Source: a virus. Taken from it: a stretch of 35,554 nt of DNA. This document shows positions 10,753 through 35,554 of the stretch, in pieces (position 1 is the first letter of the stretch; each line of letters starts with the position of its first letter). The DNA lies in the IMG/VR virus record IMGVR_UViG_3300043786_000604, positions 1 through 35,554 of that record; one strand, given 5' to 3'. Made by a program: the position numbers and the translations under genes. The notes under the pieces are model-generated. The model did not search any database. It was not told the origin of the DNA and saw nothing but the letters and a program-made list of their open reading frames with translations.

Positions 10753-12081
10753 ATGGCAGATGGATTAGCTGGCGCACTAGCAGGGTTAAACTATACACCA
10801 CAGGAAACTGCTTATGGTATTGCTGGTGGTGCACTTAACCAACTTACCCCACAGATTATAACGCCTTATACCTCTACAGGAAGGGCGGTAGGTATAGGCT
10901 TAGGTTCGATACTCCTTCAGTCATTACTGGGCTACCAGGCGCGTCAAGAGGCCGTACAGCAGAGCCTAGAGACTAATCGGTTGGCTAACCAGCTTATGAC
11001 ATTTGAAACGCCAGAACAAAGAACTGGCTTTATTGAGCAACTTCCATCCGGCGGTTTTCTTGACCCACGAGAGCGATTACTTACGTTAGCTACGGCGCTT
11101 AATCAGCAGGAAACTGCAAGAAAAGCTAAAGCAGCAGAAAAGTTACTAGAGCTACAAACTGCGGCTGACTTTGAGCTTGGGCCGAAAGGCACCGAGCTGT
11201 TTGAGCGCAAAAAGCAGCAAGAAATTGATATTGCTCGTGCTAGAATTAAAGGGCTAACAGGAGCATTAAGCGAAGAGGTTCCTGAGACGCCAATGCCTTT
11301 GCCTCCAATGACAGGGGCTACGCCGCTGCAAGAAAAGCGAGATGCTTTAATTGGGCGAGGTATTTCAATGGGAATGACGCCAGGCCAAGCGGCCGATTAT
11401 GCCGAAAAGAATCTTTCGCTTGAAACCGGAGCTACCAAAGATGCTCAAAAGCGAATAGATAAATCAAGAGAGCGTGCAAATGCATTAGAGCAAGTAACTT
11501 CTACTGCTCGTGCAGGACTTGAAGGCGCAGGTATTACTGGCGGAATAGAAGGTGGCATTAGAGAACTTGCTTCTAAAGCATACGCTTTTGTTAGTCCCAA
11601 AGAACAGGAAAAGCGAGATTACCAAAAATTACTTGATTCGGTTAGACCGCAAGTTGTTCAAATGCTTCGTTCGCCTGGCGCAGTTTCAGACTTTGAAACT
11701 AAATTGTTAATGGGCGCAGGACCAAGTTCAACAAATACACCAAGTGAAAACGCTAGAATTATTCAAGGCATGGATGTTGTAGCTAATCTTGAAGCAGACT
11801 ACGCCGACTTTGTTGAGTCGTTGGTTAGAAAGCAAGGATCTTCCGCTGGCGCAGATGCTTTATGGCGACAATACAAGAATGAACAGGTATTTCCTGAAGG
11901 TAAGTACAATCCTTTGCGTACTGATTGGGCTAGTTGGCTTGCAGAGCGTGGTATGTCTACTGAATCAGCTATTGTAGGCCCAAATGTTGCAGGCAGCAAC
12001 GCAATAGCAGCATTACAGGCTCGCCTAGACGCATTAGATCGTAAAGAAGCGGAATTAAAAGCTCGCAAAGGGATTAAATGA
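10753..12081 (+). CDS. Internal virion protein, helical, unknown family
   Basis: The 442-residue product has a hydrophobic Gly-rich N-terminal part (about residues 1-65, with AVGIGLGSILLQSLLG) followed by long alpha-helical, charged sequence. A P-rich loop (about 175-195) divides it. It overlaps the next gene by four bases (ATGA), so it is co-translated with the transglycosylase-bearing protein. Size and coupling fit the middle member of a three-protein ejection set, by analogy with podoviruses. No catalytic motif is visible. Confidence 0.7.
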   Translation: MADGLAGALAGLNYTPQETAYGIAGGALNQLTPQIITPYTSTGRAVGIGLGSILLQSLLGYQARQEAVQQSLETNRLANQLMTFETPEQRTGFIEQLPSGGFLDPRERLLTLATALNQQETARKAKAAEKLLELQTAADFELGPKGTELFERKKQQEIDIARARIKGLTGALSEEVPETPMPLPPMTGATPLQEKRDALIGRGISMGMTPGQAADYAEKNLSLETGATKDAQKRIDKSRERANALEQVTSTARAGLEGAGITGGIEGGIRELASKAYAFVSPKEQEKRDYQKLLDSVRPQVVQMLRSPGAVSDFETKLLMGAGPSSTNTPSENARIIQGMDVVANLEADYADFVESLVRKQGSSAGADALWRQYKNEQVFPEGKYNPLRTDWASWLAERGMSTESAIVGPNVAGSNAIAALQARLDALDRKEAELKARKGIK

Positions 12082-14054
12082 ACGAAGCAGAGCAATTAGC
12101 AGCACTTGAACAACGCTTATTAGCTAAAGAACAAGCAATCGCTCAACTTGAAGCTATGCCCGATGTTGGCTACAGCTCTTTAACTGGAGGTGCTAAACAA
12201 TTAGCGTTCGATATTCCTGTGGGCGTAGCTCGTGCTGGAGCAGGACTGGCTGATGTTTTGTCGTACCCGATTGTAAAAGGTTTGGAATACGCAGGTGCGC
12301 CTGTAGAAACCTTTGGACTTAGCAAGTTACTTAGTGCAGGAACAGAACAAGTAGCTCCTACACTCGGTGTGCAGCCTGAAACCGGAACGCAAGAGTTGGT
12401 TAGCTTTCTTACGCCTTCGCCATTGTCTAAAGCTAAATTGCTTAGTCAGGCTGGCACCGGATTGGCGTCTTACCTTGGAATGCAAGGTGCCGAAGCCGTA
12501 GCGCCAGAATCGCAATATGCTGGATTGGTAGGCGCATTGGCTGGCCCTAGTATTGCAACTCTAAGCGGCAAAGCAGTTGGAGCTGCTGCGCCTAAATTAG
12601 AAGATATAGGACTTGGATTGCAGCGAAAAGCACGAGGTATTACAAAGGCTGATTACAAAAACGCTAAAAATGCAGTAATTGAAACTGTAGACGGTGAGTT
12701 TAGTACGCAGTTAAAAGAAAGTGCTGACAACCTTATTAAAAACAAGACGCTAGGAACAAGCCGCAATCCTGGTGATATGTATGCTAATTTACAAGCAGCC
12801 AAAGAAAGCACAGAAAATGCTATTCAATCTGTATTGAAATCAACAGAAGCTCAAATTGGGCCAGTACCACCACCTACTTTTGATAATACTCTCAATTATA
12901 TTAAAAATAACATCGATTCGGCAGAAGTCGATTCTTATCTAGCTTATTTGGCAAACAAGCAAAGTTCATTAGCTCGTGAAGGGCAAGGCAGTTTAACGTA
13001 TCTAAACCAGCAAAAAAAAGTAGTTGGTGAAAGTTGGAAAAACTCTCCACTATCTGATGCTGGATTTTGGCGTACTCTATATAGAGACATGAAACAGCAT
13101 ATTGAAAAGTATGCTCCAGAAGTTAAAGATTTAAATAAAAAGAAACAAGATTTAGTAGTAGTTGAGCCCATTGTAACTCGTAATTTTAAAGCTTCTGGTG
13201 GCGATTTTGACATTGGCGCAGCTCAACGGTTGCTTAATACAACTGGTGGAGCTGGCTTGGCGGGGGGAGCGATTTTAGGCGCAGCTACAGGCAATGTAAA
13301 ACGAGGACTTCTAGGTGCCTTAACTTTGCGTGGTTTAGCTACGCCTACAGGTCAGGACATTGTGGGGCGTGGTTTACGAGCTGGGTCTTCGTTAGCCGAA
13401 GTGATTGGTAAATTAGGTTTTAAAATTGATGCAAAAGATTTAGGAGTTTTACAGCGTGGTGGCATAGCCGAAGGATTTGCGTCAATCGCCGATCAAACAG
13501 CGGCAGAGATATTATCTGCGCCTGAGCCAGATACATTAGAGGATATTCAGGCACAACGAGAAAAGTTAAAAGCAGCTTTGCAAAACTTAACTGTTACTAC
13601 AGAGCCTACCCTACAACCTAAAACCGTCAAAGTAGGCAAGCAAAACGTAAGCATACCTACAGGCGAAGAGTATGCGCCTCCGTCATTGGTTAAGGCTGTA
13701 ATGAAAGTAGAGTCAGCAGGTAAGCAAGAATCTATTAGCCCTAAAGGAGCTACTGGCTTGATGCAGCTTATGCCAGCAACAGCAAAAGATTTAGGAGTAG
13801 ATCCTACCAACGCGCAAGAGAACGTAGAGGGTGGCAGCCGCTATTTGCAGCAGTTGATTAGTAAATATGGCAAAACTGATATAGGGCTCGCAGCGTATAA
13901 CTGGGGGCAAGGTAATGTTGATAAGGCCATTAGAAAGTTAAAGGCTGAAAGGAAAGCTGTAACATGGGCCAATATCATGCAGGTAGTTAAGGTGCCGATG
14001 GAGACACGGCTATACGTTAACAAGGTATTAAAAAATAGAGAAGTAGAAGCATAA
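12078..14054 (+). CDS. Internal virion protein with C-terminal lytic transglycosylase (SLT) domain
   Basis: The product has 658 residues. Residues ~1-180 are Ala/Gly-rich and partly membrane-like, ~180-390 are helical, and ~530-650 form an SLT-type lysozyme-like domain. Visible there are the catalytic-glutamate motif VMKVESAGK (Glu545), the GATGLMQLMPATAKDLGV block and the AAYNWGQGNVDKA block, the standard three motifs of the family. Phages inject such proteins to open peptidoglycan locally during DNA entry, so this is infection rather than lysis. The ATG overlaps the previous stop. Confidence 0.88.
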   Translation: MNEAEQLAALEQRLLAKEQAIAQLEAMPDVGYSSLTGGAKQLAFDIPVGVARAGAGLADVLSYPIVKGLEYAGAPVETFGLSKLLSAGTEQVAPTLGVQPETGTQELVSFLTPSPLSKAKLLSQAGTGLASYLGMQGAEAVAPESQYAGLVGALAGPSIATLSGKAVGAAAPKLEDIGLGLQRKARGITKADYKNAKNAVIETVDGEFSTQLKESADNLIKNKTLGTSRNPGDMYANLQAAKESTENAIQSVLKSTEAQIGPVPPPTFDNTLNYIKNNIDSAEVDSYLAYLANKQSSLAREGQGSLTYLNQQKKVVGESWKNSPLSDAGFWRTLYRDMKQHIEKYAPEVKDLNKKKQDLVVVEPIVTRNFKASGGDFDIGAAQRLLNTTGGAGLAGGAILGAATGNVKRGLLGALTLRGLATPTGQDIVGRGLRAGSSLAEVIGKLGFKIDAKDLGVLQRGGIAEGFASIADQTAAEILSAPEPDTLEDIQAQREKLKAALQNLTVTTEPTLQPKTVKVGKQNVSIPTGEEYAPPSLVKAVMKVESAGKQESISPKGATGLMQLMPATAKDLGVDPTNAQENVEGGSRYLQQLISKYGKTDIGLAAYNWGQGNVDKAIRKLKAERKAVTWANIMQVVKVPMETRLYVNKVLKNREVEA

Positions 14055-21307: not shown

Positions 21308-21781
21308 TTAATATAGTTTTGACAAGGTTATTACCTTAGCGGCATACCTTTGTCCCTCAGCACATTTCACCTTGCCGCAGTTGTACACGGTTAGAGCCTT
21401 ATGCAGGTCGCCATGCTGATCTAGCTCCTCCCGTAGTATCTGAGCACCACAGCGAAGGTTGTACGTTGGGTCCCATAGCTTGTTAGCGTCCGGAAGCCCA
21501 CACCTACGTGCGTTGGCTGGCATGATTTGCGCTACACCCCTGGCCCCTACGTGAGAGACTGCTTTAGGGTTATAGGCTGATTCTACCCGTACCAAGGCCC
21601 GTAGGATTGACCGCTTTAGCCCGTAGGCATCGGCAGCCCTATCGACTTCAGACTCTAGCAGAGCCCTGCTAGGCTCAACGGGTCGCCTTGCTACCCTACT
21701 CCCGTGATACACTACGGTTTCGGGTAAGCAGACGCACCAAGCAAGAGCAAAAAATCCTGCTATGGCTACACCCTCCTTCAT
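21308..21781 (-). CDS. Secreted lytic transglycosylase (SLT), likely endolysin
   Basis: The 157-residue product begins with a hydrophobic segment (about residues 4-19, AIAGFFALAWCVCL), a signal peptide or signal anchor. The SLT-like domain has LVRVESAYNPKAVS (catalytic Glu67), GARGVAQIMPANARRCG and LTVYNCGKVKC blocks. It would cleave peptidoglycan in the periplasm and could be exported by the host Sec system. It lies with a lipoprotein and a small membrane protein in the minus operon, with ATGA overlap upstream. Confidence 0.85.
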   Translation of the reverse strand: MKEGVAIAGFFALAWCVCLPETVVYHGSRVARRPVEPSRALLESEVDRAADAYGLKRSILRALVRVESAYNPKAVSHVGARGVAQIMPANARRCGLPDANKLWDPTYNLRCGAQILREELDQHGDLHKALTVYNCGKVKCAEGQRYAAKVITLSKLY

Positions 21782-23257: not shown

Positions 23258-23304
23258 TACTGTGTACAATTAACTATAGCAATATGATGCTACCGTGTAC
23301 AGTA
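23258..23304 (-). promoter_or_regulatory. Minus-strand promoter with paired palindromic operators
   Basis: On the minus strand -35 TGTACA (23296-23301), a 17-base spacer and -10 TATAGT (23273-23278) drive the gene at 23228. TACCGTGTACAGTA (23291-23304) covers the -35, and a second box, CTGTGTACAA (23260-23269), lies near the start site. Box centres are 33 bases apart, about three helical turns, which would allow paired repressor binding. The context matches the promoter at 25311-25342, including ATATGATG nearby. Confidence 0.68.
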
Positions 23305-23357: not shown

Positions 23358-23432
23358 ATGCCTCAAAAGAATAAAAAAGGACCGGCCACTTGCTACAGTA
23401 AAACCGGTCCTTCGACAGGAACAATATGGTGA
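23358..23432 (+). CDS. 24-residue leader peptide before the initiator gene
   Basis: ATG at 23358, TGA at 23430-23432, with GGGGAGG about ten bases upstream. It overlaps the initiator ATG (23426) by seven bases, so ending translation there could pass ribosomes on. The peptide is basic and polar (MPQKNKKGP start). It spans the hairpin at 23377-23412. Translation of it would melt the hairpin, an attenuation-like arrangement. Confidence 0.48.
   Translation: MPQKNKKGPATCYSKTGPSTGTIW
23377..23412 (+). promoter_or_regulatory. Leader stem-loop upstream of replication initiator
   Basis: AAGGACCGG (23377-23385) and CCGGTCCTT (23404-23412) form a perfect 9-bp stem with an 18-base loop. The end lies 13 bases before the initiator ATG, where CAGGAA (23416-23421) is the likely ribosome site. 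No U-run follows. It could control initiator translation. Confidence 0.6.
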
Positions 23433-24061
23433 AGCATAACAAAAAACGGCCGTTTGTCATAGTCTATTTAGATTTAGTCGAAAACGGTTTGACCTATGAA
23501 GAGGCGGCGTTGATTCGGTACGTTAAGCGTTTCGAGGAATCCAACAAACCATGCTTCGCCTCTATTCCCTACATAGCAAAAGATTTGAGACTTGCAGAGC
23601 GTACGATACGCCGTCATCTGAGGCGTCTTATTGACCTGGAATACCTTAGAGCAACCGGTAAAGGGAGAGGCAGATACCTAAATACGAATGCGGCCAAAAT
23701 GGCCACTAACACCGGCCAAAATGTCACTGAATGCGGCCAAAATGGCCGCTGTGATACCGGCCAAAATGGCCGCCTATCTAATAGTATTATGATCAATAGT
23801 AGTATCAATAATAATTTATCTATAAATAATATATCTAAATTAGATATTACAGGGGGTAGTATGAAGGGGGAAACTGAAGCCGAGAGGAAGCGTAGGTTAC
23901 ATCTCAAGGGCCTATGGGATGATCCTACCGGCTGGACTGATGATGGAAGTGCTCTGACTAAATGGGATGAAACCTATCAGACTCTACTCCGCAAGCCTAA
24001 GCCGGTACATGCTTTAAAGGCTTGGAATGGCAAAGCAGACTACAGCGATATACCTGAATAG
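23426..24061 (+). CDS. Lambda-O-like replication initiator containing the origin
   Basis: The product has 211 residues. Residues ~20-85 form a winged-helix/HTH module: YEEAALIRYVKRFEESNKPCF, SIPYIAKDLRLAERTIRRHLRRLIDLEYL and GRGRYL, as in phage O-type and DnaD-like initiators. Residues ~90-115 are repetitive (TGQN / GQNGR) because the DNA there is a set of four iterons. An Asn/Ser/Ile-rich AT-encoded linker follows, and the C-terminus (GLWDDPTGW to DIPE) may contact host helicase or loader. In lambda and P22 the origin also sits inside the initiator gene. No phage helicase is found, so host DnaB recruitment is inferred. Confidence 0.8.
   Translation: MVKHNKKRPFVIVYLDLVENGLTYEEAALIRYVKRFEESNKPCFASIPYIAKDLRLAERTIRRHLRRLIDLEYLRATGKGRGRYLNTNAAKMATNTGQNVTECGQNGRCDTGQNGRLSNSIMINSSINNNLSINNISKLDITGGSMKGETEAERKRRLHLKGLWDDPTGWTDDGSALTKWDETYQTLLRKPKPVHALKAWNGKADYSDIPE
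23691..23771 (+). repeat. Four origin iterons CGGCCAAAATGGCC
   Basis: Copies are at 23691-23704, 23713-23726 (ends GTCA, divergent), 23734-23747 and 23758-23771, start to start 22, 21 and 24 bases, about two helical turns. Each has GGCC-N5-GGCC symmetry. They lie in the initiator gene directly before an AT-rich stretch, just as initiator-binding iterons do in lambdoid origins. Confidence 0.82.
23772..23851. other. AT-rich DNA-unwinding candidate next to iterons
   Basis: About 80 bases downstream of the iterons are dominated by A/T, with runs like AATAATTTATCTATAAATAATATATC. This marks the likely melting region of the replication origin. It encodes the Asn/Ile/Ser-rich linker of the initiator. 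Confidence 0.72.
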
Positions 24062-24162: not shown

Positions 24163-24378
24163 CTATTCGATCAAATTAGATTTATTGGCTAACGCAACTC
24201 CCAGTTTAACACCGTCGATAAATCGAGATTTCTCTTTACCCTGAAGCCCGTACTTGTCGCACCATTCAAACATCACCTTGGCAATATCGTTATGAATAGG
24301 TGGGTATTTCTCTAAATGGGCTCTCAGATGTAAATGTTTCAAATGAGCAGTTGGATTAATCAATATATTTTTAGTCAT
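24163..24378 (-). CDS. Small hypothetical protein
   Basis: The 71-residue product is His-rich at the start (HLKHLHLRAHLEKYPP), then helical (DIAKVMFEWCDKYG, DGVKLGVALANKS). AAGGAT precedes the ATG with suitable spacing. Last gene of the second minus operon. No family recognised. Confidence 0.68.
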   Translation of the reverse strand: MTKNILINPTAHLKHLHLRAHLEKYPPIHNDIAKVMFEWCDKYGLQGKEKSRFIDGVKLGVALANKSNLIE

Positions 24379-24385
24379 AAAATCC

Positions 24386-24580
24386 TTACTTTGTTGGCGT
24401 TACCCATTGATCATTGACTTTAACGGCCTCTAAATCAGTATTTTTAACTACGTACTCCATACTATGAGTGCCATCCCAATGTTTTAAGGTAACAGTAGCC
24501 CTGTTACCTAGAGCCAAGACATCAACTATTTTACACTCAAGTCCTTTGTATTTTGCTGTCATTCCAGTTGTCACTTTCAT
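24386..24580 (-). CDS. Small SH3-like protein
   Basis: The 64-residue product begins MKVTTGMTAKYKGLECKI, followed by beta strands VDVLALGNRATVTLKHWDG and MEYVVKNTDLEAV, a small-barrel pattern similar in outline to the 65-residue product at 22711-22908. AGGTAGGATAT precedes the ATG and is shared with the end of a 27-residue frame. The function is unknown. Confidence 0.68.
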   Translation of the reverse strand: MKVTTGMTAKYKGLECKIVDVLALGNRATVTLKHWDGTHSMEYVVKNTDLEAVKVNDQWVTPTK

Positions 24581-24585
24581 ATATC

Positions 24586-24669
24586 CTACCTCGTTACTAA
24601 ACAGATTATACCGACAATTGCCGCTACCAGCGGAGATACTATACTCAAGATGCGATCTAGTGGGTCCAT
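24586..24669 (-). CDS. 27-residue membrane microprotein
   Basis: ATG at 24669, TAG at 24586-24588. AAAGGATAT before the ATG matches the leader style of the neighbouring genes. The peptide is a single hydrophobic span (ILSIVSPLVAAIVGIICLV) with a charged start (MDPLDR) and TR end. The gap between genes is otherwise empty, so the frame is probably translated. Confidence 0.58.
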   Translation of the reverse strand: MDPLDRILSIVSPLVAAIVGIICLVTR

Positions 24670-24680
24670 ATATCCTTTAG

Positions 24681-24923
24681 TTATTCTATAGACTTACATG
24701 CAGATACGATAACCGCATTCTGAACCGCAGCGTCTACAACTACCTTTAACTGCTCAGGCGTATAAGTAACTTCATCTAGATAGGTTTCAACTAGTGCTGT
24801 GACGTTGGGAAACAGCATCATAGAATCGCCATTGATGTCACGATTCTCACTAGTACATGTTTCTATATAGTCGATAACAGCGTCTAAATTCTCATAATAT
24901 TCAAGCGGTATTTTGTTGCTCAT
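24681..24923 (-). CDS. Small acidic hypothetical protein
   Basis: The product has 80 residues from the ATG at 24923, with GGAGA five bases upstream. A 13-residue upstream extension lacks support. It is acidic and helical (YYENLDAVIDYIETC, YTPEQLKVVVDAAVQNAVIV). No membrane segment or catalytic motif is visible. The function is unknown, possibly a host-interaction protein. Confidence 0.66.
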   Translation of the reverse strand: MSNKIPLEYYENLDAVIDYIETCTSENRDINGDSMMLFPNVTALVETYLDEVTYTPEQLKVVVDAAVQNAVIVSACKSIE

Positions 24924-24986
24924 ATATTCTCCGTATCTCGCACTATTGCGATTATCAGCCACCCCGTAGGATGGCTTGTAATCACA

Positions 24987-25268
24987 CTAGGCTGCTTGAA
25001 CTATATTTTCTTGTTCGCTGTTGGCTGCTTGTACTCCTCGATTGAATTCGCGTTTTTTAATGCTTGCGCGTTCATCAATAGGCATATTAATCAATGCCAT
25101 AACCTCTAAAATACCTGGCAATAATTTTTCATTACGCTGCAATCCTTGCATGCAATATTGAGTTTTTTCTAAACTAGCAGAAAGCTCAATTCTACGTTGC
25201 CAATAACCTAAAGCCCAACATACATGCTCAAATTGATGGATTAACTTATCTGTTTTAATTGTTCTCAT
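24987..25268 (-). CDS. First gene of second minus operon, hypothetical
   Basis: The 93-residue product is helical and charged (LIHQFEHVCWALGYWQRRIELSAS in the first third, KKREFNRGVQAAN later). GAGGAATAT precedes the ATG. It follows the operator-covered promoter at 25311-25342, with a leader hairpin at 25284-25299 in between. No family recognised. Confidence 0.7.
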   Translation of the reverse strand: MRTIKTDKLIHQFEHVCWALGYWQRRIELSASLEKTQYCMQGLQRNEKLLPGILEVMALINMPIDERASIKKREFNRGVQAANSEQENIVQAA

Positions 25269-25310: not shown

Positions 25311-25342
25311 ATCATACTCTATATGATGTACTGTGTACAGTA
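25311..25342 (-). promoter_or_regulatory. Minus-strand promoter with palindromic operator on -35
   Basis: On the minus strand -35 TGTACA (25334-25339), a 17-base spacer and -10 TATGAT (25311-25316) drive the gene at 25268. TACTGTGTACAGTA (25329-25342) has perfect 6-base arms around GT and covers the -35. It matches the site at 23291-23304 at 13 of 14 positions. Confidence 0.72.
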
Positions 25343-25501
25343 GTAGTATCGGTATTATGTAAAAAAAGATTAGGGGTATTTTCTGCTACGAGATATCAAT
25401 AGGTTAGCGTTACCCTATTGCACGATCTGCGCACAGTAACTACTCTGATCAGTGTGTGGATCAGCGGTAACCATTATCCAGATAGCTATCAGGACAGGAA
25501 G

Positions 25502-27862: not shown

Positions 27863-28072
27863 ATGGGGGTTGAGCACAGTTTTAAAGACGAGGACAAGCC
27901 AGAGGTAATGCGTTGTCCTAAATGTGAGCATTTAAGTACGGAAAAGTATGGGGAAAGTATGCCTTATACTAGCTTCTTTCCTGGGCTATCAGATGAGTAC
28001 TTTGTGTGTAAAAATCCTAAGTGTAACGTAGAGAGGATTTATGCGCATAATGCTATAACCTTACGCAAATGA
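27863..28072 (+). CDS. Zinc-ribbon small protein 3
   Basis: The 69-residue product has CPKC (about 18-21) and CKNPKC (about 49-54) with about 27 residues between, a classic ribbon spacing. It starts two bases after the previous stop and overlaps terL by ATGA. Conserved nearness to terL suggests a packaging or head-assembly accessory, which is inference. Confidence 0.68.
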   Translation: MGVEHSFKDEDKPEVMRCPKCEHLSTEKYGESMPYTSFFPGLSDEYFVCKNPKCNVERIYAHNAITLRK

Positions 28073-30513
28073 GCGAAGCTTTAGACGTAAATGTAGTATG
28101 GGCGCCGCAAAAAGGACCGCAGGAGGCGCTGGTAAACTGCCCCATTACGCTTATTGGCTATGGTGGTGCACGAGGTGGTGGTAAGACTGACGGAGTACTA
28201 GGGAAGTTTGCAATTAAGCAGGAACAGTTAGGGGCTGACTTCAATGCTATCTTTTTTCGTAAAGAACTTCCTCAAGCTGACGACCTTATTGAGCGTGCCA
28301 AACAGATTTACTTACCGCTTAAAGCGCATTGGCAGGACCAGAAAAAGCAGTTTACCTTCCTGTCGGGTGGTCGCCTACGTTTTAGACCTTTAGCTAATGA
28401 CGCTGATGCTGAAAAATACCAGGGCCAGAATCTTTGCGTAGCGGTTGGTACTCCTATTCGCATGGCAGATGGCACTTTTAAGCCGATAGAACAAATTCAG
28501 GTCGGCGATATGGTCGCGACCTTACTTGGGCCTAGACGTATAAAACATGTCACTACGCCTTATCTTGCGCCTTGCGTCGAAAGCCAGGTTTTGGCCCAGG
28601 ACGGCACCGAGGTGGGGCGTCAGAAAAATCCCATTTGGCATCCTGTTTTGACCGCACACGGAGTTTCTTCCACCGCTGGAGACTGCGAGCAACACAAGTT
28701 TCTGAAACGCCATATTGATGAGCAATCTCGGCTATGGGCTTTATCTGCTTGTAACGTAGATCGTATATTTCCTGCATATAAGGGTCTAAAGCACCAGGCT
28801 TGGTTCGCTTGCTTAGAAGATAAGAAAACTTATTGTAAAGAGTCATTGGATGACAACCTAACTTTGCAGCAGCTTCCATCGTTGTCCGTCCCTGTAACGC
28901 TTCACGCACCGACTGTTCGGTTAAAGCAAAAGCACGAGCGCCACGGCCACGACGAATCCAGCGAATGTCATGCTCAACACAAATCCGTCGAACAGTTGTC
29001 GGACTTAGCCCCAATGCAGCAAAAGATACGTCAGGGTTTTCAGCAGCTTGACGCACTTTTTCAACCAGGTCTGGGTTCGCTCTGGCACTTCGATGATGGT
29101 CTTTCATGTGAGCAGACCAACTTGTATACAACTTCAAGTTCTCAAGACGATTATCAGTTTTCTCGTGATTTATGTGATGAACGCACTCGCCAGGTCGTAG
29201 AAACCGGCCAAGGTGAATTTCCATTACAAGGCGATGCTGTTGAATTACACCATACATTGACCGGGGATGCGTCGGGCACCACTCAAACACATAGCCCTGC
29301 GCCGATACAGTGGTGGGTGCATCCTTATAGCGGCAAGGCTTTTCATCTGGCTGAGGACGTTGTTTTTGGAAAGATGGTAATGACATATATTGGTGAGCAC
29401 CTTGTAACTGATTTAACGGTTGAAGAAGCTAATCATTATATATCAGATTGCGGCCTTATCAACAAGAACTCAGATTGCGCTATAGAGGAAGCTGGTAACT
29501 ATGCTGACCCTTCCCCTATCTGGAAGCTATTCGGAGCACTACGAGGCAAGGGAGGCGGTCAAATCATCCTTACCTTTAACCCTGGCGGTATTGGGCATCA
29601 TTGGCTTAAAGAGTTGTTTATTAAACCAGCGCCAAAAGGGATGAAGGTACTTACTAAGGTGCTACCTAACGGCGGTAGTTTTGATTACATTTACATACCA
29701 AGCAGGGTTACAGATAACCAAATTTTGTTAGCTAGAGACCCTGAATATATTAACCGCTTGCACATGGTAGGTAGCCCTGAGCTAGTGCGAGCATGGCTAG
29801 AAGGAGATTTTGAGATCCATGAAGGCAGTTACTTTCCTGAGTTTAGCTCTAAACACATTGTTACTCCTTTCAATGTACCAAAGCATTGGCCCCGCTATTT
29901 GGGGTTTGACTGGGGTTATCGCTCTCCTTTTGCTGCTGTCTGGGGTGCAGTTAGCTCTGGACGTAATGATAGAGGTGATGAAGTTCCGTATCCTAAAGGA
30001 GCAATTATCATATACCGAGAAATGTCTGCAAAGGGAGTCGATAACGTCGAGCAAGCTAACCGAATCGCTTCAGTATCCATGGGAGAAAATCCAATAAGCG
30101 TAGCTGACCCTAGTATCTTTAGCCATGAAGGGGGCCCAAGCATTAACGACCAATTTAATTCTATTTTTGCTAAATATAAGCATCCTACCTTTAGGCCAGC
30201 AGATAACGACCGCATCAGCGGCTGGTCTCAAATTAGACAAAGGCTAGTAGCTAACCCGCCTTTATTGTATATCTTTGCTACTTGCCCGTATTTGCTAGAA
30301 ACCTTACCATCGATGTCAATAGACAAACGTAATCCAGAAGATTTGGATAGCAGCGGTAACGACCACGGCGTCGACGCCTTACGCTACTTGTGTAAAGCTC
30401 GTTTAATTGACGCTAAATGGGAGCAAACTCCAGACGTGGTAGGTAAGGGTATTGTTAAATTGCAAAGTTATATAGCGCGAATAAGGGCTAGAAACAAAAG
30501 ACCGACAATATGA
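28069..30513 (+). CDS. terL: Large terminase subunit precursor interrupted by an intein
   Basis: The 814-residue precursor is expected to splice to 469 residues, a normal TerL size. The ATPase part has Walker A GYGGARGGGKT (residues 30-40) and, after the intein, SDCAIEEAGNY (Ser468 on) as Walker B/catalytic region. The motif YQGQNL (117-122) immediately before the intein joins to SDCAIEEAG, the natural TerL sequence. The nuclease part shows FDWG (Asp614), VADPS (Asp680) and NDHGVDALRY (Asp765, Asp769), the usual metal-binding acids. It cuts and pumps DNA into the procapsid. Its ends overlap both neighbours by ATGA. The terL product is inactive unless spliced because the insertion splits the ATPase core. 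Confidence 0.93.
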   Translation: MSEALDVNVVWAPQKGPQEALVNCPITLIGYGGARGGGKTDGVLGKFAIKQEQLGADFNAIFFRKELPQADDLIERAKQIYLPLKAHWQDQKKQFTFLSGGRLRFRPLANDADAEKYQGQNLCVAVGTPIRMADGTFKPIEQIQVGDMVATLLGPRRIKHVTTPYLAPCVESQVLAQDGTEVGRQKNPIWHPVLTAHGVSSTAGDCEQHKFLKRHIDEQSRLWALSACNVDRIFPAYKGLKHQAWFACLEDKKTYCKESLDDNLTLQQLPSLSVPVTLHAPTVRLKQKHERHGHDESSECHAQHKSVEQLSDLAPMQQKIRQGFQQLDALFQPGLGSLWHFDDGLSCEQTNLYTTSSSQDDYQFSRDLCDERTRQVVETGQGEFPLQGDAVELHHTLTGDASGTTQTHSPAPIQWWVHPYSGKAFHLAEDVVFGKMVMTYIGEHLVTDLTVEEANHYISDCGLINKNSDCAIEEAGNYADPSPIWKLFGALRGKGGGQIILTFNPGGIGHHWLKELFIKPAPKGMKVLTKVLPNGGSFDYIYIPSRVTDNQILLARDPEYINRLHMVGSPELVRAWLEGDFEIHEGSYFPEFSSKHIVTPFNVPKHWPRYLGFDWGYRSPFAAVWGAVSSGRNDRGDEVPYPKGAIIIYREMSAKGVDNVEQANRIASVSMGENPISVADPSIFSHEGGPSINDQFNSIFAKYKHPTFRPADNDRISGWSQIRQRLVANPPLLYIFATCPYLLETLPSMSIDKRNPEDLDSSGNDHGVDALRYLCKARLIDAKWEQTPDVVGKGIVKLQSYIARIRARNKRPTI
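28553..29386 (-). CDS. HNH homing endonuclease encoded antisense inside the intein
   Basis: The 277-residue product reads opposite intein residues 40-318. The HNH core is GVIQQHRLVMEIHLGRFL then PGECVHHINHEKTDNR with LENLKLYTS (about residues 46-89), containing His70/His71 and Asn79/Asn83, the usual ββα-metal nuclease pattern of phage homing enzymes. Three helix-turn-helix segments follow (about 107-140, 157-190, 204-240), suitable for long-site recognition, then a basic tail. The ATG at 29386 has AAGGTG 11 bases upstream. Its likely target is the intein-free terL site. Inteins normally fuse the nuclease in frame, so this placement is unusual. Confidence 0.9.
   Translation of the reverse strand: MSLPSFQKQRPQPDEKPCRYKDAPTTVSAQGYVFEWCPTHPRSMYGVIQQHRLVMEIHLGRFLRPGECVHHINHEKTDNRLENLKLYTSWSAHMKDHHRSARANPDLVEKVRQAAENPDVSFAALGLSPTTVRRICVEHDIRWIRRGRGARAFALTEQSVREALQGRTTMEAAAKLGCHPMTLYNKFSYLLSKRTKPGALDPYMQEIYDLRYKQIKPIAEIAHQYGVSETCVARSLQRWKKLRVRSKQDAKWDFSDAPPRCRPGPKPGFRRKAQDKA
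29435..29462 (-). promoter_or_regulatory. Near-consensus sigma70 promoter for the antisense endonuclease
   Basis: Minus strand: -35 TTGATA (29457-29462), 16-base spacer, -10 TATAAT (29435-29440, perfect). A start near 29428 gives a leader of about 42 bases to the ATG at 29386. The promoter lies within the DNA encoding intein blocks F/G, so the same bases specify splicing residues and promoter elements. Confidence 0.75.
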
Positions 30514-34522: not shown

Positions 34523-35554
34523 ATGGCACTGAAGGACGGATTAGTTAGGGCGTATGTTCCTTGGCTGGGGGCTTCCGGCGGGCGACTTATAGATAGGTCG
34601 AACGCTAGAAATCATGCCACGTTGTCAGGCATGGATCCAGGCACAGACTGGACGGCTGCTACTGTTAGCGGACTATCTGGTACTGTTCTTGATTTCGACG
34701 GTACTAACGACACAGTTACCGCTACTGCTACACAATCACTTACGACTTATCCTTTTACTTTATCGTCTTGGGCTTCAAACAGAGCGCTGCCAGCCTCTGT
34801 TTATCATCAAAGTTTAGCAGTTGGTACAGGCTCTAGTAACTATTTTGCTGTTGGTTTTGTTAATATCAGCGGCAGTTTAAGAGCTAGCATTGTAGGTCGT
34901 AATACTACATTTACTCAAAGTAACTCGACTGTAAATCGCTCTCTGAATACTTGGTATCACCTAGTCGGAGTATTTGAGTCGGCTACAAGTAGAAAGCTGT
35001 ATGTTAATGGAGTTTTAGACCATACAGGTACGACTAGTGTTACCGAATTAGCTAACGGAACTGGTGTAAGAATAGGTTCCCAATTTGCAACGCACTTTTT
35101 TAACGGTCAAATTGCCGAAGGTTTAATTTACAATAGAGTATTACCTGATGCTGAAATAGCGCAATTATATCAGTTAGGACCAGGAACATTATTTAGACCG
35201 CAGCCGAGGCGATTAGGCTTTGTGCCTGTTACTGGCGGGCAAACAATCAATGCTAACCTGTTTACTAATACTAACACGTTTTATAACGCTACAGTTACAG
35301 CCGGTGCCGTTAATATATCGGCCAATCTGCTTACAAATACTAGCACGTTCTACGATGCAACAATTAGCTCTGGCACTGCTAATATAGATGCTAATTTACT
35401 AACTAACACCAGCACATTCTATAATGCTACTGTTACTGCTGGCGCTGTTACCATATCGGCTGACCTGCTTAGCAACGCTAATACATTCTACAATGCTGTT
35501 GTGTCCATTGGCGACACTATTGTTGCAGACCTATACACAAATAACAGTACAATT
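34523..35554 (+). CDS. LamG-type tail/adhesin protein, N-terminal part (continues at 2-751)
   Basis: The ATG at 34523 follows the TAA of the preceding gene directly. Residues ~1-235 fit a LamG/concanavalin-like jelly roll: LDFDGTNDTVTA, YPFTLSSWASN, TWYHLVGVFESATSRKLYVNG and FNGQIAEGLIYNRVLPDAEIAQLYQ are typical strands of this domain, which binds surface glycans or proteins. From residue ~245 a run of 22-23-residue repeats starts. The window ends in the fifth repeat, and joining at the overlap gives about 523 residues ending at 751. Confidence 0.84.
   Translation, partial: MALKDGLVRAYVPWLGASGGRLIDRSNARNHATLSGMDPGTDWTAATVSGLSGTVLDFDGTNDTVTATATQSLTTYPFTLSSWASNRALPASVYHQSLAVGTGSSNYFAVGFVNISGSLRASIVGRNTTFTQSNSTVNRSLNTWYHLVGVFESATSRKLYVNGVLDHTGTTSVTELANGTGVRIGSQFATHFFNGQIAEGLIYNRVLPDAEIAQLYQLGPGTLFRPQPRRLGFVPVTGGQTINANLFTNTNTFYNATVTAGAVNISANLLTNTSTFYDATISSGTANIDANLLTNTSTFYNATVTAGAVTISADLLSNANTFYNAVVSIGDTIVADLYTNNSTI
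35255..35554 (+). repeat. Tandem 66-69-base coding repeats in tail gene
   Basis: Units begin at 35255, 35324, 35393, 35462 (66 bases) and 35528. Each encodes a version of NLLTNTSTFYNATVTAGAVTISA. The pattern continues at the window start. Copies differ at many bases but keep Asn, Phe/Tyr and small residues, suggesting a regular beta-solenoid or fibre-like stack. Confidence 0.82.
35344..35554. repeat. Right copy of terminal overlap
   Basis: This is identical to 1-211 except at 35470 and 35531 (synonymous). See the left copy. Together they imply circular closure with unit length 35,343. Confidence 0.93.

Follow-up and report, generated by a model that had tools for sequence, protein, structure and literature searches.

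A putative replication origin of lambda-type layout within the winged-helix initiator gene of a small phage

Results and Discussion

Genome context

The sequence analysed here, hereafter the window, is the whole of IMG/VR virus record IMGVR_UViG_3300043786_000604 (positions 1-35,554). Its two ends form a direct terminal repeat (1-211 versus 35344-35554, 209 of 211 positions identical) in a record classed as being without end repeats; given these near-identical ends, the genome is probably complete at ~35.34 kb, and it is probably circularly permuted or terminally repeated. The features of interest lie in a single gene, around which the early genes are divergently arranged:

23426-24061, + strand: initiator gene (211 aa) with a winged-helix N-terminus and a short C-terminus, identified by Pfam HTH_36 and PHROG
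23486-23692, + strand: winged helix-turn-helix, codons 21-89 (AlphaFold2 pLDDT ~80-94 across most of it)
23597-23635, + strand: recognition helix, residues 58-70, with R59 encoded at 23600-23602
23691-23705, + strand: iteron 1, CGGCCAAAATGGCCA (palindrome 23691-23704), in a reading frame unlike that of copies 2-4
23713-23727, + strand: iteron 2, CGGCCAAAATGTCAC, right arm degenerate
23734-23748, + strand: iteron 3, CGGCCAAAATGGCCG (palindrome 23734-23747), perfect 5-bp arms
23758-23772, + strand: iteron 4, CGGCCAAAATGGCCG (palindrome 23758-23771), perfect 5-bp arms
23775-23854, no strand: AT-rich tract (82.5% AT), presumed DNA-unwinding element
24038-24058, + strand: DYSDIPE, the acidic C-terminal tail

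Elsewhere the window encodes RecT and a Holliday junction resolvase. The large terminase (28069-30513) has an intein-like Hint insertion (Vint / Hom_end_hint, residues 123-163, sub-threshold) that splits the terminase match; the terminase of one relative (L126) aligns across all 814 residues, and those of other relatives align only in parts of ~300. Two SLT transglycosylase domains occur in this one small phage, in a 157-aa early-strand protein (21308-21781) and at the end of a 658-aa protein (12078-14054). Just upstream of the initiator gene lies an inverted repeat (AAGGACCGG / CCGGTCCTT, 23377-23412, 18-nt loop), followed on the minus strand by TTTTTT in the manner of a terminator; it would halt leftward transcription of the genes at 24163-25268, which runs antisense through the initiator, and its position recalls lambda oop. 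GTGTACA repeats (ACTGTGTACA twice, TACCGTGTACA once) at 23259-23301 and 25330-25339 sit at the starts of leftward early operons, beside a small helix-turn-helix gene at 25418, and are candidate operators of an early repressor.

The initiator protein

Residues 21-74 of the initiator match Pfam HTH_36 (PF13730; E 1e-8, 35.3 bits against a cut-off of 25), and the protein matches PHROG families described as replication initiation, O-like or DnaD-like (E 1e-7 to 4e-7). The AlphaFold2 model has helices at residues 24-38, 47-54 and 58-70 and wing strands at 74-79 and 82-87, which places R59 at the start of the recognition helix in a confidently predicted winged helix. A fold search with the whole protein returned generic winged helices only, the nearest solved structures being repressors (CzrA/SmtB and MarR-type), and another fold search returned phage helix-turn-helix proteins together with some replication-initiator models.

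The C-terminus is short, and a Pfam search finds no DnaD/DnaB_2 C-terminal domain in the window protein. Its acidic tail, D-x-[IL]-P-[ED], is kept in 11 of 16 initiators (alignment A3) despite a divergent linker and is a candidate protein-docking motif; it resembles the acidic tail of SSB without the final phenylalanine. Searches of the window and of 17 related records, several of them 31-37 kb long, detected no gene for DnaB (PF03796), IstB/DnaC (PF01695), lambda P (PF06992) or DciA, so that helicase loading by the host is implied; the probable completeness of the genome adds weight to the missing helicase gene.

Iterons and the AT-rich tract

Four copies of GGCCAAAATG, all on the + strand, begin at 23692, 23714, 23735 and 23759, within 77 bp; ~0.12 copies are expected in the whole window, and elsewhere it holds a single one, at 2468. 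Three of the four iterons are full palindromes, CGGCCAAAATGGCC (GGCCA-AAA-TGGCC), and in copy 2 the left arm is intact and the right arm is degenerate. Their spacings of 22, 21 and 24 bp set neighbours about two helical turns apart. The array lies inside the gene, ~265 nt past the start codon, and no other 80-mer of the record is as AT-rich as the tract that adjoins it, the next distinct peak reaching 75%. A preliminary description had reported this arrangement: four iterons at ~22-base spacing within a winged-helix gene, followed by about 80 AT-rich bases. Gene and tract are both confirmed, and the four copies are present at nearly that spacing, but one of them is degenerate. The peptides encoded by the iterons are AKMA at copy 1 and GQN.. 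at copies 2-4; since the copies thus fall in two reading frames, it is the DNA, rather than the peptide, that is repeated. DnaA boxes are no more frequent than expected by chance, with none at the iterons, and the detrended GC-skew has its minimum at 25.6 kb rather than 23.8 kb, a measure that is confounded here by gene orientation and weighs neither for nor against an origin at the iterons.

Relatives and their arm sets

No relatives were found by tblastn among 50,697 phage records, by a protein-pattern scan that ran the window protein alone against viral contigs, or by an alignment A2 scan of genome contigs. A search for tandem GGCCAAAATGGCC recovers 11 viral contigs, including two (L008 and L014) with initiators ~41% identical to that of the window, and a further scan with alignment A2 recovers 20 loci by N-terminal protein sequence only. 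These 20 loci form one phage group with the window, having in common the Holliday junction resolvase, RecT, terminase, portal and other genes. In the relatives examined, four to five repeats at ~22 bp follow directly after the GRGRYLNT codons, and an AT-rich stretch usually comes next. The arms change between phages as complete sets, each with its own start of the recognition helix:

Arm CGGCC: window, L008, L014; recognition helix begins ER
Arm GTGCC: L112, L115, L117; recognition helix begins ER
Arm GGGTC: L113, L116, L120; recognition helix begins ES or EC
Arm GGATC: L118, L119, L126, L127, L129; recognition helix begins EP

Sixteen close relatives contain 36 palindromes of the 5+5+5 form, where 500 synonymous-codon shuffles give 13.3 on average and never more than 23, and across the relatives the iterons occupy all three reading frames, encoding peptides as different as GQN, KM and TKCP. 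The conserved unit is the DNA, not the peptide.

Breadth of the iteron class

The paired motif CAAAATGnCC-N4..14-GGnCAAAATGnCC occurs in 99 viral contigs, compared with one when the core is scrambled. In 74 of the 99 the pair lies inside an ORF matching a winged-helix profile that was itself built from part of the same set, and in 69 it lies there in the sense orientation, such ORFs making up 2.7% of the stranded DNA. Later scans, outside profile building, place the pair in winged-helix ORFs in 25 of 116 genome contigs and in 16 of 33 viral contigs with an AAATT core. The remaining 25 viral pairs lie outside any detected winged-helix ORF and include chance coding repeats (L006, L011 and L013). 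Neither these pairs nor the 91 of 116 genome contigs in which the pair coincides with no detected winged-helix ORF are counted as support.

Hosts of the motif carriers include Bacillota, Pseudomonadota, Bacteroidota, Melainabacteria and Acidobacteria, and prophages from several phyla also contain the motif, as do two RepC genes of Rhodobacteraceae. The spacing of neighbouring iterons peaks sharply at 21-24 bp, and 34 of 45 dissimilar carriers match PHROG replication-initiation family 270; their C-terminal parts vary (DnaB_2, Phg_2220_C, RepC and others). In viral contigs of 106 and 68 kb (L009:1742-1816, and L010), three GGCCAAAATGGCC iterons, 24 and 37 bp apart, are not within a short winged-helix ORF but just past it on the downstream side, which indicates that intragenic placement is usual rather than obligatory. 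Among the papers searched, none was found to describe this iteron motif.

Covariation of the recognition helix with the iteron arm

We tested each column of the winged helix (67-68 columns) against base n of the half-site GGnC-AAA in 55 carriers of less than 70% identity. The column of R59 ranks first under both groupings (z 12.3 and 7.5), the next columns reaching 4.3 and 3.8. A T in the arm accompanies small residues in 8 of 8 carriers, compared with 8 of 47 for basic residues (Fisher 1e-5), and C-dominant arms occur with arginine only (7 of 24, versus 0 of 23 lysines; p 0.009). The rule was first noticed in the window's own group; with that group removed, the T arm is found in 7 of 7 versus 8 of 45 (p 5e-5). 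Overall similarity outside the helix is almost uncorrelated with the arm (r -0.04), and the association persists in a partial Mantel test (p 0.0015). With redundancy cut more strictly, at 45% identity, it is suggestive only (p 0.06 and 0.10), the 35 remaining carriers being too small a sample.

An example from outside this set fits the rule: within an AT-rich stretch, the repC gene of pTiBo542 contains TGCTCAAATTGAGCA, with T in the arm, and its RepC carries alanine at the presumed R59-equivalent position; we infer that this is the footprinted RepC site. The covariation lends indirect support to binding of the iterons by the initiator, and the version of the repeat that is read seems to be determined by a single residue of the initiator.

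Comparison with known systems

The lambda O gene contains four annotated iterons (spacings 20, 24 and 23; arms CCCTC/GAGGG around AAAAC) with an AT tract next to them, and O binds its iterons (PMC7466680). As in the window, these iterons stand mid-gene, after the DNA-binding domain, at ~20-24 bp spacing and before the AT tract, with 5-bp arms around an A-rich centre; P22 gene 18 and phi80 gene 15 have a matching intragenic layout. The resemblance to lambda and P22 origins proposed in the preliminary description thus holds for layout, intragenic iterons and an adjacent AT tract both being present in the window, as does its report that a P-like loader or helicase gene is missing. Its statement that the C-terminus has no recognisable lambda O homology is correct and can be extended to the N-terminus, which is of the HTH_36 rather than the Phage_rep_O type: the lambda, P22 and phi80 proteins match Phage_rep_O (PF04492) at 6e-25 to 7e-38, whereas the window protein has no PF04492 match, and hhalign of the window profile with the lambda O family is insignificant (probability 1%, E 0.056). 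The two do have some weak PHROG O-like hits in common. The window protein is also shorter than lambda O and has no O-type C-terminus, and it is accompanied by neither a lambda P nor a phage DnaB. Given the missing Phage_rep_O match, the insignificant profile comparison and the missing P partner, the window initiator lies outside the lambda O family, although it would work like lambda ori/O, and we class it among HTH_36-type phage initiators, with a putative iteron origin inside its gene.

Other replicons offer further points of comparison. In other repABC plasmids the origin has been located experimentally inside repC, where an AT-rich region is essential (PMC3155836), and purified RepC binds a dyad beside the AT-rich region in repC (PMC6090056). 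The Rhodobacteraceae RepC genes with the motif (L211:1834-2922 and L242:2804-3877) each have two GGnCAAAATG-type iterons 22 bp apart; RepC, the initiator of repABC plasmids and chromids, differs from the window protein in being larger, in its RP-C domains and in its partners repA/repB, and repABC origins are usually described without iterons. DnaD-like phage initiators of Bacillota (PHROG 6493 / 186, Pfam DnaB_2) have GGnCAAAATGnCC iterons of the identical class, 21-24 bp apart and intragenic after the winged helix, but their C-terminal domain is of the DnaD/DnaB_2 type, which is linked to helicase loading and is absent from the window protein. Plasmid initiators of the RepA_N type (pSK41) bind sites within the rep gene through a winged-helix N-terminus; in pSK41 the C-terminal domain binds DnaG primase, a point of difference. 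The working replicon pPR9, an HTH_36 hybrid, has an initiator whose N-terminus is described as pfam13730 (PMC5703833); it contains no CAAAATG iterons, which indicates that the HTH_36 family does not force the motif and that other repeats can be used.

Alternative explanations

The repeats could instead be an operator, with the winged-helix protein a regulator that binds within its own gene and so represses or times early transcription, while replication starts elsewhere. Its generic fold, nearest to repressors among solved structures, and the divergent early genes around it would suit such a role, but the sites lie inside the gene and not at a promoter, the AT tract adjoins them downstream, in other phyla the related proteins carry fused domains of the DnaB_2/DnaD-like or RepC kind, and PHROG assigns the protein to replication initiation; we therefore consider an operator unlikely as the whole account, and autoregulation could be a second role of the initiator. 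It is very unlikely that the iterons, as real initiator sites, are an auxiliary or incompatibility element in a phage whose main origin is recombination-dependent through its RecT system: in favour of this, RecT and the Holliday junction resolvase are encoded and a helicase gene was not found, but the array adjoins an AT tract in a layout that copies known origins, and recombination-dependent replication is usually preceded by an origin-dependent start.

Selection might also act on the linker peptide GQNGR for its own sake, the DNA repeat being incidental, as the shared frame and GQN peptides of three of the four copies might suggest. This reading has negligible probability and is already contradicted by the copies in different frames in the window and its relatives, by the excess of palindromic arms over synonymous-codon shuffles and by the covariation of the arms with the recognition helix. 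The peptide had been called a by-product of the iterons in the preliminary description, and the several frames and the shuffles bear this out.

Conclusions

The locus is very probably a phage replication origin within the gene of its own initiator, lambda-style and reliant on host helicase loading; in view of the lambda and repABC precedents an origin is the reading to prefer, and we infer that replication starts at the iterons. The four iterons would be bound by the winged-helix domain, each 5+5+5 palindrome probably taking up a dimer, with R59 at the start of the recognition helix reading them by pairing with C in the arm; the nucleoprotein complex would strain and open the adjoining AT tract, and the short C-terminal tail would recruit host DnaB, either directly or with the help of one of the host's loaders (DciA or DnaC, for example). 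Protein and origin would then co-evolve as one cis-linked cassette.

The wider iteron code is more interesting than the single origin. We give even chances to the proposal that phages, prophages and repABC-type replicons have one portable origin module in common, consisting of a winged helix, two to five intragenic iterons (the palindromic class GGnC-AAAATG-nCC and its arm variants) and an AT tract, in which arm specificity depends largely on one recognition-helix residue, so that origin compatibility groups would be predictable from sequence, and in which the helicase-recruiting C-terminus is freely swapped and, in the window's group, all but missing. If these readings are correct, they would locate the origin in an entire group of small phages whose genomes encode an initiator without any recognisable helicase loader, and would make it testable how a helicase is obtained when the initiator's C-terminus is almost empty. 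They would also provide a rule, readable from sequence and holding across phyla, by which one residue of the initiator corresponds to one base of the iteron; with it, origins could be read in phages, prophages and repABC plasmids that have yet to be studied, and compatibility between them predicted.
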